Assembly: GCA_023249725.1 (NCBI GenBank)
Contig: JAHFBZ010000016.1
Location: 1 to 33,095 of the forward strand
DNA: 33,095 nt
Origin: Methanobacteriaceae archaeon
GTDB lineage: Archaea; Methanobacteriota; Methanobacteria; Methanobacteriales; Methanobacteriaceae
Direction of reading: 5' to 3'
Below, piece after piece: positions 3,647-11,055 of this stretch. The notes beneath the pieces are model-generated. The model was not told the DNA's origin. It was given only the letters and a program-made list of their open reading frames with translations, and ran no database searches. The position numbers and the translations under genes were made by a program. Each line of letters opens with the position of its first letter. Within the stretch, counting starts at the first letter, position 1.

Positions 3647-4118
3647 TTTTTCTCCTTTCAATAAAACTTGTTACATAAAAAGTTACTCTTTCCCAAACAA
3701 TTTCTTAATTCTCTATCGAAATTTATGTTTATATTCTAAATAGTTTCAATAAAAAAATTTTCTAGAAATAATCAACCATAAGGCAAAATATAGTCAGTAC
3801 ATCTATTTATAAATCATTTCAATATTACTTGCTCTATTATGATAGGCAAAATTAATTTAATGATATCTAGGCCAATATTAATGAAAGTTAGATGATGAAA
3901 TATACATATACCATGTGATTTAGCGTAGTTTTGGATTTTTAGGCCTGAAATTGAACTTCGTAAATTCCGTTTAGCGAAGATTGTTTGAATTCTGCTTTGA
4001 TCAATCCAAACTAACAGAGAATATGAAGGGAATTTTTGAAATTTAAGAAAAAAATATTTTTTAATATAAACCCAATAATCGTTTTGCACAATTAATCAAA
4101 TCTAATATAATATAGAGA
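3647..4118. other. Gene-poor spacer with repeat B
   Basis: About 470 bases of AT-rich DNA between the GNAT gene and the end of the ABC-3C operon. It holds repeat copy B at 3941-3978. A 91-codon open frame on the minus strand (3814-4089) spans it, but it has no recognisable domain and no good ribosome site, and was not called as a gene. No RNA gene was recognised. Confidence 0.5.
3941..3978 (+). repeat. Dispersed repeat, copy B
   Basis: The second copy of the repeat at 3026-3064, same orientation, about 915 bases away. It begins AGGCCTGAAAT and contains AACTTCGTAAATTCCG. Differences are CC to TG near base 12, loss of one G in the GG pair, and A to G near the end. It lies between the GNAT gene and the ABC-3C operon. 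Confidence 0.6.
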
Positions 4119-6035
4119 TTACCAGTCAGTAGGAACTAACTTATTTCCCTCTCTCCAATTTGCTATAACACATTCTTGGAACCATTCATCATTAAAATTC
4201 GCATGGTCAGTCATTATAATTTGTAGTTCAGATTCTAATTCGTTTGTTAAATCAATGGCAGATTTATATATTTTTTTAACTTTTTCCACATCCACTCTAT
4301 TATCTTCTTCATCTTCATTGAAATCTATTTCTTCTGGAAAGTACACTTGGGAAGGTTGATCAAGTAATAAAAATCTTGGGAGCGGCCTCAATTGTTTTAC
4401 AAACCATTTATGTAGTGCAAAATAGGTCATAAGATGACATCCCAACCAATTTTCAGCACTACCCATAGAATCCATTGTTATCGGACCGCTTTCAGTATCT
4501 GCAATAACTGTAAGTTTTTTAATATCTAATCTGAAAACTGATTCTGAGTGTTCCAATTCAAATTCTTTAGCCCATGAACCCATATAATTATTAATAATAT
4601 TCATGATTGAATTAAGCCTTTCTTCAATATTTTCAGAAATTAATTCAGAATTTAATGAATCAATTTCATCTTTTGTAGTTTTTATTTCATCAAGAAGATC
4701 ACTACCATCTTCAATTTGAGGCAAACTATCCAAATATAAACTAATTTTACCTTTCATGAAAGATAAACGATTGTTATATTCCTTAATCTCTCTTAATTCC
4801 CTGGTATTTTTTTGTATTGAATCGATAGCTTTTTTGTTATCATCTAATTGTTTATTAACAGAATCTAATTTCTCTTTTAATTCCCTAATTGCTTTTTGTA
4901 ATTGTGGTGATTCCTTTTCTACTGAACTCATTTGAGAATTTAAGTTACTAAAAGATTCTTTTAGATCATTAATTGTAGCTATCGAATTATCTTCCAGTGA
5001 TGAATTGCATATGGGGCATGTTAAGTCACCTGATTCTTCATCAAATAATTCTAAACTTTTTAACCTCATTAGATGAATTTCTGCTTCTTTAGAGTATCCT
5101 TCTCCATCAGAAAATAATTTTTCAACTGATCTTAACTGTCTTTGTAAAAAGGATCCTTCCTGTCTTAAACTTAATTCTTCTTCTTGTAATTCTTCAAAAG
5201 CATTCCCCTCTATAATCATTTCACTATTAAAAGATTTATTCATTATATCTTTAAGTAATTCAATACAATCAGACCAATTTTCAGGAATATCTCCACCATA
5301 TAGCCCAAAATCTTTTGATTGGAATAATAGTAATTGGGCTTGACTTATCCCATCTCCTTTAATAGATTCTAATTCTTTTAAATTTCTATTTAATTTATAT
5401 AACTCACTACGAAGAACTTGTAATCGTTTCATTTTTCTTACATGATCCTGTTCATAAGCACCTAAAAAGTAGGGTAAGACCGCCCTAATGGTATTAGGAC
5501 CATGTTGTTCACCTTGTTTATGAAATAAAAATTTATTATTACTAATTTCCGTTTGATGCTGAAAAATAAAATGAGTTGTGTGTCTAATATTAGATTCTAA
5601 CCTCGTAATTCTTCCATAATTCATCTCTTCAGAATTTTCATGAATTCCTACATGTTTTGATAGGAGATTTCTTAAAGAAATAAGATTAATATTCGTACTT
5701 AACTCAGAATACTCTTTAATGTCAATTTTCTGTCCAATTTCATAATATATTTCTGAAGAGCTATCCGTAGATATATCTGGAATTTTTCTTGCGATAAAAA
5801 CTTCTCCTTCTATAAGTTTAAGACGAATAGCTACCCAACTAACAGTATTTCTAATATATCCCCGTGGAATATGACAATGTCCACTTCCCAAACAGTAATC
5901 AATAATGCTAAGAAGAGCAGTTTTGCCTGTTTGACTTTCACCAGAAATAATATTCAGTTTACCTAACTCAAAATCTAGTTTTTCTATAGCTCCTTCGTGA
6001 TTGTATAATATTAAATTAAGAATCTGAAAATTCAT
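4119..6035 (-). CDS. ABC-3C system ATPase (DUF3732 family, SMC/Rad50-like)
   Basis: A 638-residue ATPase, predicted motor of a three-gene ABC three-component conflict system. Walker A is GESQTGKT (residues 32-39). A long coiled coil spans about 200-475 and carries a central CPIC pair (C340, C343) like a Rad50 zinc hook. The signature-like MGSAENWLG lies near 524, Walker B LLLDQPS near 556-562 (Gln where most ABC ATPases have the catalytic Glu), and a switch histidine in TDHAN near 611. The MGSxENW and LDQPSQVYFP segments are hallmarks of DUF3732 proteins. An upstream in-frame GTG (6050) exists, but the ATG at 6035 is preferred: GGGGGAT precedes it and it makes an ATGA overlap with the middle-component stop, mirroring the other junction in the operon. 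There are no membrane segments, so it is not a transporter. Confidence 0.87.
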   Translation of the reverse strand: MNFQILNLILYNHEGAIEKLDFELGKLNIISGESQTGKTALLSIIDYCLGSGHCHIPRGYIRNTVSWVAIRLKLIEGEVFIARKIPDISTDSSSEIYYEIGQKIDIKEYSELSTNINLISLRNLLSKHVGIHENSEEMNYGRITRLESNIRHTTHFIFQHQTEISNNKFLFHKQGEQHGPNTIRAVLPYFLGAYEQDHVRKMKRLQVLRSELYKLNRNLKELESIKGDGISQAQLLLFQSKDFGLYGGDIPENWSDCIELLKDIMNKSFNSEMIIEGNAFEELQEEELSLRQEGSFLQRQLRSVEKLFSDGEGYSKEAEIHLMRLKSLELFDEESGDLTCPICNSSLEDNSIATINDLKESFSNLNSQMSSVEKESPQLQKAIRELKEKLDSVNKQLDDNKKAIDSIQKNTRELREIKEYNNRLSFMKGKISLYLDSLPQIEDGSDLLDEIKTTKDEIDSLNSELISENIEERLNSIMNIINNYMGSWAKEFELEHSESVFRLDIKKLTVIADTESGPITMDSMGSAENWLGCHLMTYFALHKWFVKQLRPLPRFLLLDQPSQVYFPEEIDFNEDEEDNRVDVEKVKKIYKSAIDLTNELESELQIIMTDHANFNDEWFQECVIANWREGNKLVPTDW

Positions 6036-6529
6036 ACTCTTATCCCCCACAATGCCATTACTGTTTCAGTATTTCCACTTGTTGCAAACCATTTGCCTAA
6101 AAATTTTGCATGTCTTATAATTTCCCTATTATCTTCTTCAAAAAGTCTTAAAAATTTATTGATATCTCTCGCAGTTTGGGATGTTATCAAATTACCAGAT
6201 TGATCAATGCTTAACCAATTGTGAGTAATACTAAAAAGTATAGACTCTTGTACAAAAGGTTTCAAAGAAATTGCTATCTCTTGAAGCAATAGTCTTGATT
6301 CAGTATTATTATCAATCCAACTTGCTAAAGATGTTCTAATAGATGTTGGAAGTTTTTTTTCTATTTTATTATTCAATAAAACAGGCAAAGCAATAAACGA
6401 CAGAGCTAATGGCATACCTTCTGGCCGTATATTAGAATAACTGATTACAGAGGTCGTTAATGCAACACTACAAAAAGCAGGATTATATAAGTGTGCAACC
6501 TCTTTTGGCCTCATAATCCACTTATTCAT
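6032..6529 (-). CDS. ABC-3C system middle component
   Basis: A 165-residue helical protein between the effector and ATPase genes, overlapping each neighbour by four bases (ATGA at 6526-6529 and 6032-6035), so the three are translated as a coupled unit. The N-terminal pattern RPKEVAHLYNPAFCSVAL and the length match the middle-component family that accompanies DUF3732 ATPases. There is no enzyme motif. The family is thought to bridge the ATPase and the effector. Translation could also begin at M6 (MRPKEV), but the ATG at 6529, behind GGTGA, gives the overlap. Recognition rests on context and the N-terminal motif; a profile search would settle which middle-component type it is. Confidence 0.8.
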   Translation of the reverse strand: MNKWIMRPKEVAHLYNPAFCSVALTTSVISYSNIRPEGMPLALSFIALPVLLNNKIEKKLPTSIRTSLASWIDNNTESRLLLQEIAISLKPFVQESILFSITHNWLSIDQSGNLITSQTARDINKFLRLFEEDNREIIRHAKFLGKWFATSGNTETVMALWGIRV

Positions 6530-7710
6530 GATTCACCAATTATTATATCTTGTAATTTCTTTTCAAATTCAGGATGCCAACCTATTTTCTTTTCATTAGA
6601 TAAAATTTGGTAAGAACCCCTTGTAACAAAAGCCTCGGTTATATTAGGTCTTAAAGGCACAAATTTAGTTTCAGCCCACCGATACAAAGCTTTTCCATAT
6701 TTTATTTTATCTTCATCTGCTTTACTATCACCAATTTTATCTTGAATCCTCTCAAAGCAGATTTCCCATTCTTCTATTAATTGTTTTTCATAACGATCCA
6801 ATTCTTCAGGCAATACAAATCCTTCTTGTAACCACCTAGATCTGTGTTCAAAAGCCCGATAATAATTTTTTACAGCTCGAAAAATTCCATTATTCATATC
6901 AACTAATTTTAACTGTTTAACAAAAATATAATCGTCGAACTCACTCTCATTAACTTCAAAATCTAAAATATCATTATCTATGGGTAGATTATACTTACTA
7001 AATTGGTCTCGCAAGATATCCATTTTCGCCCTAATTTCTTGACTTTTAATCAGATCATTTTCATCATTGATATGATCAAATACACGATTTAACCACCAAC
7101 CAACAAATCTCTTCCTGAACGATCCCAATAAATGTTCTCTTGCCGCATTAGATATCTCTTTACAAATTTCAACATCTATATCTTCAATGATTGGATTTTT
7201 ATCAATAATAACTACATTTTCAAACAATTCTTGTTTTTCATTATAAGTCATTGAATTAAATAACTTGTAGGCTTTTTGATTTGATTCATTTTTCGAAGTT
7301 TTACTAACTTTGGATAACGTATCAATCACTTTAAAAATATCTCTATTATTCTCTTTTAAACAATGCGCAGCACAATCAGATGGAATTACACCAGTTGTGA
7401 TTAAAAAAAATTTTGTTTCAGAAGAAAAATATCCCTTTGAAATACCATCACACCAAATTCTAATAGTTTTCCATAAATTAGTAGAATAATCACCAACATC
7501 AGCTTCATCTTTTGATGTATGTTTTATTTGTGATGATTCTATTACCTGATTATCCTTTTTAATAACAACATCATCTTCCGCCTCAATTACAATATCAAAT
7601 TTACTACCATCTTTCATTTTTTGAAGACTTAATAACAATGCAATTTTGCACTGAAATAAATAACCTTTCAATGAATCTCTTGCAGAAAATTGTGATTTAT
7701 TCTTTGCCAA
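6526..7710 (-). CDS. ABC-3C system effector: nuclease-like N-terminal domain plus ABC-3C C-terminal domain
   Basis: A 394-residue protein and first gene of the operon. The N-terminal ~65 residues resemble the restriction-endonuclease-like domain of DUF4297/Cap4-type effectors: a GYLFQCKIALLLSL helix, then an acidic strand (IVIEAEDDVVI, residues 40-50) and a QIKH motif (Q61, K63), together an E/D...QxK active-site pattern. The C-terminal half (about 190-394) has the aromatic and charged helical pattern of effector C-terminal domains in these systems (VKNYYRAFEHRSRWLQEG). The start is a TTG at 7710, supported by AAAGGGGAT five bases upstream; no in-frame ATG gives a better start. By family analogy the ATPase and middle component sense a threat and license the nuclease. 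The target is unknown and activity is inferred. Confidence 0.78.
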   Translation of the reverse strand: MAKNKSQFSARDSLKGYLFQCKIALLLSLQKMKDGSKFDIVIEAEDDVVIKKDNQVIESSQIKHTSKDEADVGDYSTNLWKTIRIWCDGISKGYFSSETKFFLITTGVIPSDCAAHCLKENNRDIFKVIDTLSKVSKTSKNESNQKAYKLFNSMTYNEKQELFENVVIIDKNPIIEDIDVEICKEISNAAREHLLGSFRKRFVGWWLNRVFDHINDENDLIKSQEIRAKMDILRDQFSKYNLPIDNDILDFEVNESEFDDYIFVKQLKLVDMNNGIFRAVKNYYRAFEHRSRWLQEGFVLPEELDRYEKQLIEEWEICFERIQDKIGDSKADEDKIKYGKALYRWAETKFVPLRPNITEAFVTRGSYQILSNEKKIGWHPEFEKKLQDIIIGES

Positions 7711-8026: not shown

Positions 8027-8374
8027 ATGAAACTAATCAAAATAAAAGATGAAGATCTGTTCAAAGAATGTATTGCATGTTTCTTTGACAAATTGAATAT
8101 TATTCTCACATTATTAGGCCTAATTATAACAAGTACTATTGGAATTACCGCCTATTACAAAGAACAACCACTAGTTAACTTTTTTATCAATATTTTAGTA
8201 GTTTTAGGATTTTACTACTTGATATTAACATTTTTATTGCTAAAATTGTACAAAAATAAACTTAAATTGAAAAAATTAGAGGAAACTAAAAAAAAGGAAC
8301 CTGAAACAGAACCTGATCCCATAGCCATTGGTTTTGCTCCAAGCTTATTTAGAGAAAGATATAAAAAATGGTAA
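8027..8374 (+). CDS. Small two-helix membrane protein of unknown function
   Basis: A 115-residue protein. Two hydrophobic segments, about residues 24-43 (LNIILTLLGLIITSTIGITA) and 52-73 (FINILVVLGFYYLILTFLLL), are joined by a short charged turn, so it is probably a membrane hairpin with both ends on the same side. The C-terminal ~40 residues are highly charged (KKLEETKKKEPETEPDP) and end in a basic RERYKKW. No family was recognised. No clear ribosome site precedes the ATG, so expression could be leaderless or weak. It is transcribed divergently from the ABC-3C operon and sits just before the cysS remnant, inside the defence-like island. A role in that island is possible but unsupported by motifs. 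Confidence 0.55.
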   Translation: MKLIKIKDEDLFKECIACFFDKLNIILTLLGLIITSTIGITAYYKEQPLVNFFINILVVLGFYYLILTFLLLKLYKNKLKLKKLEETKKKEPETEPDPIAIGFAPSLFRERYKKW

Positions 8375-8464: not shown

Positions 8465-8574
8465 TTAATTATCCTCAATATCAATACCCCGATCCTTCAA
8501 GCGACTGCTAATATCATCAGATAATCCCATTCCTTCTTTTCCCTGAGTTTCTGTCGGATATCTTTAATGATGTT
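8465..8574 (-). pseudogene. Remnant of a second cysS 3' end (frameshifted)
   Basis: Reading the minus strand recovers a sequence matching the last ~36 codons of the intact cysS at 11056: NIIKDIRQKLREKKEW, then a one-base deletion, then LSDDISSRLKDRGIDIEDN and a stop. The intact gene has DIIKDVRQKLREKKEWALSD and ends RLNDLGIDVED. By eye nucleotide identity is about 78%, and most differences are at third codon positions, so this copy evolved as coding sequence before it was cut off. Similarity ends upstream near 8575 and at the stop codon. It lies about 2.5 kb downstream of the real cysS end, in the same orientation, with the SNIPE-like gene between. Confidence 0.85.
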
Positions 8575-8615: not shown

Positions 8616-9848
8616 TTATTTATTACTCATTTTATCAATTTTCAAAGTATCATAATACTCCTGTGCCTCTGGTTTATCACTAAAACTATGCGCTAACTCT
8701 TTGTTCTCTTCAACAATTTTCTTAACATCATCATATGTAATATTGAAAAATTCTTTTCTACTATTTACTTTATTCACTCTTTTATGATCAAATCGGTGAT
8801 GTAATTCTCTTTCTAACTCAAAAGCTTCTTTACTAAAAATAAATACATGAGTATCGAATCTAAATGGAACTGATGCATTGGATAATTCCCTTACTCTATC
8901 TTGAGGTTCATCTCTTCTTGTTACCCCTATTTTATACACATCTTCTCCGAAGGAACCTATATTAGATAATATATATACATATCCTGCGCCTGTTCGTTTT
9001 CTTCTATTGTTTATCTGCTCAATATCGTCATTACTTTTTGCTAAAGCTAACTCTAATTCTCTGATTCTAAGTTTTAATTTTTCTTTTTCTTCATCAGATG
9101 CACTTTCCCTTAATTCAGCCCCTATTTTATTTATATCAGTTTCCAATCTCTTTTTTTGTTCATTGATCTTTTTCTCTTCAGCATCTAATTGTCTTTGTAT
9201 TTTTCGCTCTTCTCTTTCCTGTTCTCTTGCTTCCCTCAGCAAATCTTTTTCTTCTTGCTTTTTCAACTCATATTCAATAGCTACATCAAGTTCTTGCAAT
9301 TTCAAATCCAAATATTGTGGGGTGATTTTTACAACATTTCTTTCATTTAATTTATTCAACGCTTCAAATGATTTTTGTATTCTTTTAACAGAATTTTCTC
9401 TATTTGAAATCTTTACTTTACTTATTACCATATCACAATCTAAATTAAAATTTCTAAGTATTTGTTTTATATTAGCATTAGTTAGTGCTCTCCCTTGTTG
9501 TATGCTATCATTCACTGTCCATTCCGATTCACAAACTGCTGCTCTTTTATTTGTTATAAGATCTTTTTGTTTCTTCCTTATTTCATCTAATTTTTCTTTA
9601 TATAATACAGCTGTTAAAAAATCATATTTTGGTTCATATAAACCTACTTCTTGCATTTCAAGCGCATCATTCACCAATATTAATCCTTTCTTTTTCTTGT
9701 TTAACTCATAATTTAGATTAGTTAATTGGATTCTTCTTTCTTGTAATCTACTATCAATTTTTTTTACCTTTTCTTGTAATCTAATATCTATTTCTTTTAC
9801 CTTTTCTTGTAATTTAATATCTATTTCTTTTACCTTTTCTTCTTCCAT
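8616..9848 (-). CDS. SNIPE-like nuclease, C-terminal part: coiled coil, DUF4041, GIY-YIG (T5orf172/Mug113)
   Basis: A 410-residue frame that begins with ATG immediately after an in-frame TAG closing the upstream frame; the two are in the same phase and were clearly one gene. Residues 1-55 continue the upstream coiled-coil repeats. Residues about 60-200 look like DUF4041 (YDFLTAVLYKEKLDEI, then CESEWTVNDSIQQGRALT). A second charged coiled coil spans about 195-285. The C-terminal GIY-YIG-type nuclease domain runs from about 287: GYVYILSN (289-296), VYKIGVTRR (304-312), RVRELSNAS (318-326) and FELERELHHRF (343-353), with likely catalytic Tyr, Arg and Glu. DUF4041 plus Mug113 with an N-terminal membrane anchor is the layout of SNIPE, an anti-phage nuclease that acts at the membrane on entering DNA. 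Alone, this part would lack the anchor. Confidence 0.8.
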   Translation of the reverse strand: MEEEKVKEIDIKLQEKVKEIDIRLQEKVKKIDSRLQERRIQLTNLNYELNKKKKGLILVNDALEMQEVGLYEPKYDFLTAVLYKEKLDEIRKKQKDLITNKRAAVCESEWTVNDSIQQGRALTNANIKQILRNFNLDCDMVISKVKISNRENSVKRIQKSFEALNKLNERNVVKITPQYLDLKLQELDVAIEYELKKQEEKDLLREAREQEREERKIQRQLDAEEKKINEQKKRLETDINKIGAELRESASDEEKEKLKLRIRELELALAKSNDDIEQINNRRKRTGAGYVYILSNIGSFGEDVYKIGVTRRDEPQDRVRELSNASVPFRFDTHVFIFSKEAFELERELHHRFDHKRVNKVNSRKEFFNITYDDVKKIVEENKELAHSFSDKPEAQEYYDTLKIDKMSNK

Positions 9849-10604
9849 CTATTTCAATTTACCATCAATATTAGCTAATTCCTCATTTTTACCCTTCAAT
9901 TTTTCATTTATTTCCTTCTCCTTCTCCTTCTCCTTTTCTTCCAATTTGACATCTAAATTAGCTAATTGATTTTCTTTCTCTTTTAATTTAATATCTATTT
10001 CTTTTACCTTTTCTTCTTCCATCTCTTTCAATTTACCATCAATATTAGCTAATTCCTCATTTTTACCCTTCAATTTTTCATTTATTTCATTTTCTTTTCC
10101 TTTTAATTTAATGACTATCTCTTTTACCTTTTCTTCTTCTATCTCTTTTAATTCGTTATCTAAATTAGCTAATTGATTTTCTTTCTCTTTTAATTTAATA
10201 TCTATTTCTTTTACCTTTTCTTCTTCCATCTCTTTCAATTTACCATCAATATTAGCTAATTCCTCATTTTTACCCTTCAATTTTTCATTTATTTCCTTCT
10301 CCTTCTCCTTTTCTTCCAATTTGACATCTAAATTAGCTAATTGATTTTCTTTCTCTTTTAATTTAATATCTATCTCTTTTACCTTTTCTTCTTCCATCTC
10401 TTTCAATTTACCATCAATATTAGCTAATTCCTCATTTTTACCCTTCAATTTTTCATTTATTTCATTTTCACCTTGATTAGCCTTTTTGTTTAAAAAATAT
10501 GCTCCAATTATTATCAATGGAATTCCTAAAAAGAATAAATACACTGATATTGTTAATATTATACCAATAATTATTATTGCTAGTCCATGATCACTAAATT
10601 TCAT
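9849..10604 (-). CDS. SNIPE-like nuclease, N-terminal part: membrane anchor and repeated coiled coil
   Basis: A 251-residue frame ending at a TAG (9849-9851) directly followed, in phase, by the ATG of the nuclease part. Residues about 8-40 are strongly hydrophobic (LAIIIIGIILTISVYLFF, then LGIPLIIIGAYFL), enough for one long or two short membrane helices. The rest is a Lys/Glu-rich coiled coil of near-identical units such as EINEKLKGKNEELANIDGK followed by LKEMEEEKVKEIDIKLKEKE. In the earlier copies of the unit the codon at the stop position is GAG (KLKEMEEE), while here it is TAG, so one G-to-T change splits a 662-residue gene. A strong AAGGTGATTAA ribosome site precedes the ATG. The product as read is a membrane-anchored coiled coil without an enzyme. 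Confidence 0.8.
   Translation of the reverse strand: MKFSDHGLAIIIIGIILTISVYLFFLGIPLIIIGAYFLNKKANQGENEINEKLKGKNEELANIDGKLKEMEEEKVKEIDIKLKEKENQLANLDVKLEEKEKEKEINEKLKGKNEELANIDGKLKEMEEEKVKEIDIKLKEKENQLANLDNELKEIEEEKVKEIVIKLKGKENEINEKLKGKNEELANIDGKLKEMEEEKVKEIDIKLKEKENQLANLDVKLEEKEKEKEKEINEKLKGKNEELANIDGKLK
9852..10466 (-). repeat. Intragenic tandem repeats coding for coiled-coil units
   Basis: A nearly identical segment beginning TTTCAATTTACCATCAATAT on the plus strand starts at 9852, 10026, 10233 and 10401. Spacings are 174, 207 and 168 bases, all multiples of three, so units can be gained or lost without changing frame. The protein unit is about 56-58 residues, one copy carrying an extra 11. 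DNA identity is higher than coding needs would explain, which suggests recent duplication or ongoing gene conversion. Confidence 0.85.
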
Positions 10605-11055
10605 TTAATCACCTTATTAATTAAGAATAATATTTTGTGCATTATATAATTTATGACGATATAATGCGATTAAAAACATTTTAATGATAAAAAAATTCGT
10701 GATTAATATTTTATAATATTAGTATTGAGAATTTTTTCAATTAAATAATTTTCAACATTTTAATTCTCTTTTAAAGCCCTCAAAATACGTTATGTTTAAT
10801 TTAATTTCTTTTTGAGATCTTCTTGGAATTTTAAAAATATTCTAATAAAATAAGACACAAAATCAAAAAAATTAATTTGAAATATATATGTTTATATGGT
10901 CTCTTAGAACAGTTTTGCAGAGTATGGGATTTTTAATAGATATGAATTCAAAAAAAACATGAAATTATGTTCTATAGACCAAGAACAACTTATTAGATTT
11001 AATGTGGTATAAATAATACTACATTTTTGTAATGTTTTCAAATAAAAAAATTTAA
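10605..11055. other. AT-rich spacer between the SNIPE-like gene and cysS
   Basis: About 450 bases, very AT-rich, downstream of cysS and upstream of the SNIPE-like gene. No open frame, tRNA or recognisable operator was found. A small TACATTTTTGTA inverted repeat lies at 11020-11031, just after the cysS end. No similarity to the DNA flanking the cysS remnant on its other side was seen, so the duplication is limited to the coding tail. Confidence 0.5.

Follow-up and report, generated by a model that had tools for sequence, protein, structure and literature searches.

The locus and its surroundings

The window analysed here is the whole 33,095-nt stretch of contig JAHFBZ010000016.1 from a Methanobacteriaceae archaeon (assembly GCA_023249725.1). 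On its minus strand, positions 10604-8616 comprise 663 codons in one phase, in which the sole internal stop is a TAG (9849-9851) abutted by an ATG (9848-9846, minus strand) with a spacing of 0 nt (Table 1). The initial annotation had described two frames in phase, parted by this one TAG with an ATG beside it, and re-reading confirmed that description, with both frames on the minus strand. Shuffled versions of the gene (n=300) contained a mean of 71 in-frame stops and a minimum of 51, so the long phase common to ORF1 and ORF2 is not a product of chance, and the two halves belong together. A KLKEMEEE motif occurs four times, and it is the fourth occurrence, also the last long repeat of a coiled-coil stalk, that holds the TAG. 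At this codon GAG stands in the other copies (residues 65, 121, and 190) and in a related ELKEIEEE motif, as the initial annotation had noticed for the earlier repeats. A scan for promoters and terminators returned nothing in excess of shuffled sequence.

Table 1. Features of the interrupted gene and its immediate neighbourhood (positions in the window)
Feature	Position	Strand	Remarks
Shine-Dalgarno AAGGTGA of ORF1	10609..10615	-	4 nt before ATG; duplex energy with 16S 3' end -8.9 kcal/mol
ORF1, 251 aa: two-helix membrane hairpin, then coiled-coil repeats, to TAG	9849..10604	-	N-terminus matches that of L015 at 44/46 residues
Membrane hairpin GLAIIIIGIILTISVYLFFLGIPLIIIGAYFLNKK	10482..10583	-	Kyte-Doolittle 19-residue maximum 2.9; motif conserved in archaeal copies
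Stalk coding tandem repeats	9737..10463	-	Units of 168/207, 87, and 33 nt; longest exact repeat 138 nt
In-frame TAG, last long repeat copy	9849..9851	-	ATG next, at 9846-9848
ORF2, 410 aa: stalk end, DUF4041, long helix, GIY-YIG (T5orf172/MUG113) nuclease	8616..9848	-	
DUF4041 core (PF13250)	9300..9467	-	E=3e-19; sole DUF4041 place in genome
GIY-YIG nuclease domain (PF10544/PF13455)	8706..8984	-	ORF2 E346 lines up with E414, the catalytic residue in E. coli SNIPE
Decayed cysS 3'-end duplicate	8465..8571	-	3' of SNIPE; identity 80% with cysS of this genome, 87% with cysS of G010; 1-nt deletion
Lmu-like ABC-3C operon, complete: LmuA/CTD7 with Cap4-like nuclease, MC3, DUF3732 ATPase	4119-7710	-	Downstream of SNIPE

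The gene is situated in a defence island. The genuine end of cysS (from 11056) and the decayed duplicate of a cysS 3' end bracket the segment, and as the duplicate is nearer to the cysS of another genus (G010) than to the cysS of its own genome, it appears to be a trace of arrival from elsewhere. The cargo that follows cysS differs among the related genomes G002, G001, and G010 (loci L039, L040, and L041): restriction-like and RmrA-like matches occur in G002, and genes that resemble, by reading only, a helicase and an ATPase occur in G010. As related genomes carry other defence-like genes at this place, the post-cysS region looks like a defence hotspot. A small predicted membrane protein of 115 aa (8027-8374, plus strand), for which no family was found, is encoded convergently with the interrupted gene.

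Identity of the interrupted gene

The gene is SNIPE by descent, although intact function is not asserted. SNIPE is the name now given to PD-lambda-1, an E. coli inner-membrane protein that cuts phage DNA during injection (PMC13190303). Interaction with the tape measure protein is a further trait of this system. The initial annotation had proposed a SNIPE relative in an archaeal host, with anchor and coiled coil parted from DUF4041 and GIY-YIG, and this was supported by the match of ORF2 to PADLOC PD-Lambda-1 across 398 residues (E=1.6e-135), and by DUF4041, T5orf172, and MUG113 profiles that all scored over their cut-offs. ORF2 also retains the catalytic glutamate, the replacement of which by alanine (E414 to Ala) abolishes defence in E. 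coli SNIPE (PMC13190303). The only anchor lies in ORF1, where residues 8-41 form a hydrophobic hairpin, the hydropathy maximum of ORF2 being just 0.68. Thus DUF4041, a C-terminal GIY-YIG domain with its catalytic glutamate, and an N-terminal membrane anchor are all encoded at this locus, whereas the single polypeptide that joins anchor to nuclease in the relative L015 is here divided by the TAG. No second copy of the gene was found elsewhere in the genome. An AF2 model (pLDDT 78) had no significant match in the PDB, and sequence and fold searches of the PDB returned nothing useful.

The window gene has in common with E. coli SNIPE an N-terminal anchor, a helical region, DUF4041, and a C-terminal GIY-YIG domain with catalytic glutamate (PMC13190303), and the identity between the bacterial protein and ORF2 is about 35-38%. 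The archaeal gene differs in that its anchor is a two-helix hairpin rather than one transmembrane helix, its stalk is far longer and repetitive, and a TAG stands between anchor and nuclease. Archaeal SNIPE would be expected at the cytoplasmic membrane, where it would cut viral DNA during injection. The phage DUF4041/GIY-YIG proteins of phrog_1847 (E=1.1e-131; 36.5% identity for one example, gp19 of Salmonella phage ES18) have the domain order of the window gene; they are carried by bacterial phages, whereas the window copy lies in a chromosomal defence island.

An archaeal clade of SNIPE genes

SNIPE matches were found in 20 of the 152 Methanobacteriota genomes searched, all in one family, the Methanobacteriaceae. 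In a tree of 23 sequences the archaeal copies form one group apart from the bacterial ones (support 100/98). Several have viral-type genes as neighbours. The L015 copy (3929-5440) adjoins an integrase, a Cdc6-like ATPase, a DNA N6-methylase, and a PCNA-like gene; the L023 copy (4608-6167), the locus of which is in IMG/VR, adjoins a pseudomurein endoisopeptidase and an integrase; and integrases lie near the copies at L043 and L045. The neighbours in L023 and L015 suggest carriage by viruses or proviruses of methanogens. Two copies (L009 and L010) represent an N-terminal variant of SNIPE, in which a zinc-ribbon-like segment, CFNCGNPLDENSKFCKKCG, lies ahead of the membrane hairpin. A contig binned as Bacteroidota (L016; JARKQC010000248.1) holds an archaeal SNIPE fragment of 86% identity, and is probably misbinned. 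The paper that describes SNIPE does not mention archaea (PMC13190303), and a literature search turned up no report of SNIPE in methanogens.

The nearest relative (L015/L006) encodes both halves, with the same hairpin, in one open frame of 503 codons, and the split in the window gene is therefore derived. L015, from the metagenome-assembled genome Methanobacteriaceae archaeon C17_concoct.bin.30, is 79% identical over ORF2; its ORF is uninterrupted and its stalk measures 114 aa, against 276 aa in the TAG-split gene. Relatives from other genera likewise join a similar hairpin, stalk, DUF4041, and nuclease in a single frame, and no split homologue was found among the relatives. The initial annotation had allowed for orthologues with separately encoded halves, and the opposite was encountered: those that keep the anchor are single ORFs, and an origin as two separately evolved genes is accordingly rejected. 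Two genomes of the same genus were examined, and both lack a SNIPE gene.

The sequence downstream of the TAG is well preserved. The dN/dS of ORF2 against L015 is 0.27, and that of the window branch is 0.42, with an interval of 0.12-2.9 that is too wide to speak for or against relaxed selection. Of 140 columns that are conserved in the other copies, the window gene departs at six, in each case conservatively. An old pseudogene is rejected, given that ORF2 carries no further lesions and retains these columns. Elsewhere in the clade the copy of G055 (L007/L042) has an in-frame TGA directly before its GIY-YIG domain and that of G194 is frameshifted, and on the evidence of these two broken copies decay of archaeal SNIPE recurs.

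The stalk of this gene is an outlier as well. Between the end of the hairpin and a conserved GLYEP motif lie 276 residues, compared with 100-187 in the measurable archaeal copies, and the extra length consists of near-identical coding repeats. The base that makes the TAG is the lone mismatch in a 120-nt stretch common to another repeat copy, and the TAG-bearing repeat has exact homology to three other copies over 63-78 nt to its left and 25-41 nt to its right. The stalk repeat was sought in viral contigs, and none was found to contain it.

Interpretation of the internal stop codon

We propose, with somewhat more belief than doubt, that a recent nonsense change in the expanded repeat inactivated this archaeal SNIPE gene. 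The ancestor was one protein, in which the two-helix membrane hairpin was joined through a long coiled-coil stalk to DUF4041 and the GIY-YIG nuclease. In this genome near-identical coding repeats have recently been duplicated, and the stalk has lengthened as a result. One nonsense change, situated in the final long repeat, would then stop translation ahead of DUF4041 and nuclease, and the main product would be a membrane-bound coiled coil without nuclease, for which reason the lineage that was sequenced has most likely lost this defence. That all downstream sequence is intact makes the change look recent. Among the four options offered by the initial annotation, recent inactivation is thus the one favoured; sequencing error ranks second, as a minority possibility that deserves to be taken seriously, and restart after the stop, while possible, is less likely again, as is readthrough, which the data argue against.

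Were the TAG an artefact, whether a wrong base or a mixed-strain consensus among near-identical repeats, the gene would be intact. The genome is a draft in 143 contigs, the suspect base is the one mismatch in its 120-nt shared stretch, within a gene that also holds an exact repeat of 138 nt, and the two further broken archaeal copies, in G055 and G194, also come from drafts. Yet a collapse of repeats would be expected to favour the majority codon. Survival of the minority base in this assembly presumably required reads with TAG; we therefore lean towards a real allele. Moreover, an interruption was seen in none of the window's other annotated genes. We judge an artefact to be a distinctly less probable account than inactivation of a genuine gene.

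The remaining accounts accept the TAG as real. Readthrough, by which a full protein would be made at low level, is favoured by a frame and codon phase that run on past the TAG without other damage. However, TAG terminates seven other genes in the window (ORF1 being the eighth) and is an ordinary stop here; in profile searches for PylS and PylB (genome 94% complete) every match fell below its curated cut-off; and in a tRNA search with 32 matches there was no CUA anticodon among the 30 examined. The tRNA missed by ARAGORN reads as an intron-bearing CAT tRNA. Decoding of amber as pyrrolysine is rejected on these grounds, which also make readthrough by a dedicated tRNA unlikely, and we regard readthrough of any kind as the least credible of the accounts. 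Alternatively, translation might stop at the TAG and restart at the adjacent ATG, so that an anchor-stalk chain and a DUF4041-nuclease chain rejoin via their coiled coils. The 0-nt spacing falls within the range of -8 to +10 nt from which termination-reinitiation is predicted in Haloferax and E. coli, and Shine-Dalgarno motifs are not strictly essential to that process in Haloferax (PMC10666635, PMC6728339); in addition, related coiled-coil repeats are kept on both chains. Against this, the ATG encodes the methionine present in each KLKEMEEE repeat, needs no selection as a start, and is therefore not evidence of an evolved one; the Shine-Dalgarno of ORF2 is weak and badly spaced (-3.2 versus -8.9 kcal/mol for ORF1); no homologue split in this manner was found among the relatives; and the stalk remnant on ORF2 is short, while in E. 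coli SNIPE is toxic once it has lost its anchor, and then binds host DNA and cuts it (PMC13190303). Some nuclease chain may nonetheless be produced by restart at the ATG, but given the toxicity of anchorless SNIPE in E. coli, efficient restart should be harmful for as long as the two chains stay apart. A working two-chain SNIPE is, in our judgement, improbable. Still more doubtful is a reversible switch, in which recombination among stalk repeats removes or converts the TAG copy and so toggles the nuclease in the population: the exact homology that flanks the TAG repeat on both sides would permit it, and stalk lengths do vary among relatives, from 100 to 276 residues, but a lone nonsense change in a repeat is explicable without a switch. 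We accordingly give little credence to the wider notion that the TAG, as reversible off-switch or as part of a two-chain arrangement, controls the membrane tethering of the nuclease.

Significance

Beyond the stop codon, what is new here is a clade of SNIPE genes in the Methanobacteriaceae, often in provirus-like contexts, and this clade is a more durable result than the interrupted copy. This well-supported clade, several members of which lie by viral-type genes, suggests that cutting of DNA at the point of injection is also directed against archaeal tailed viruses, and that viruses compete with one another by this means. The TAG-bearing copy, for its part, would be a natural anchor-loss allele, and the making of such a product is toxic in E. 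coli; it thereby poses the question of whether SNIPE in archaea, too, must be held at the membrane if the host genome is to be spared.
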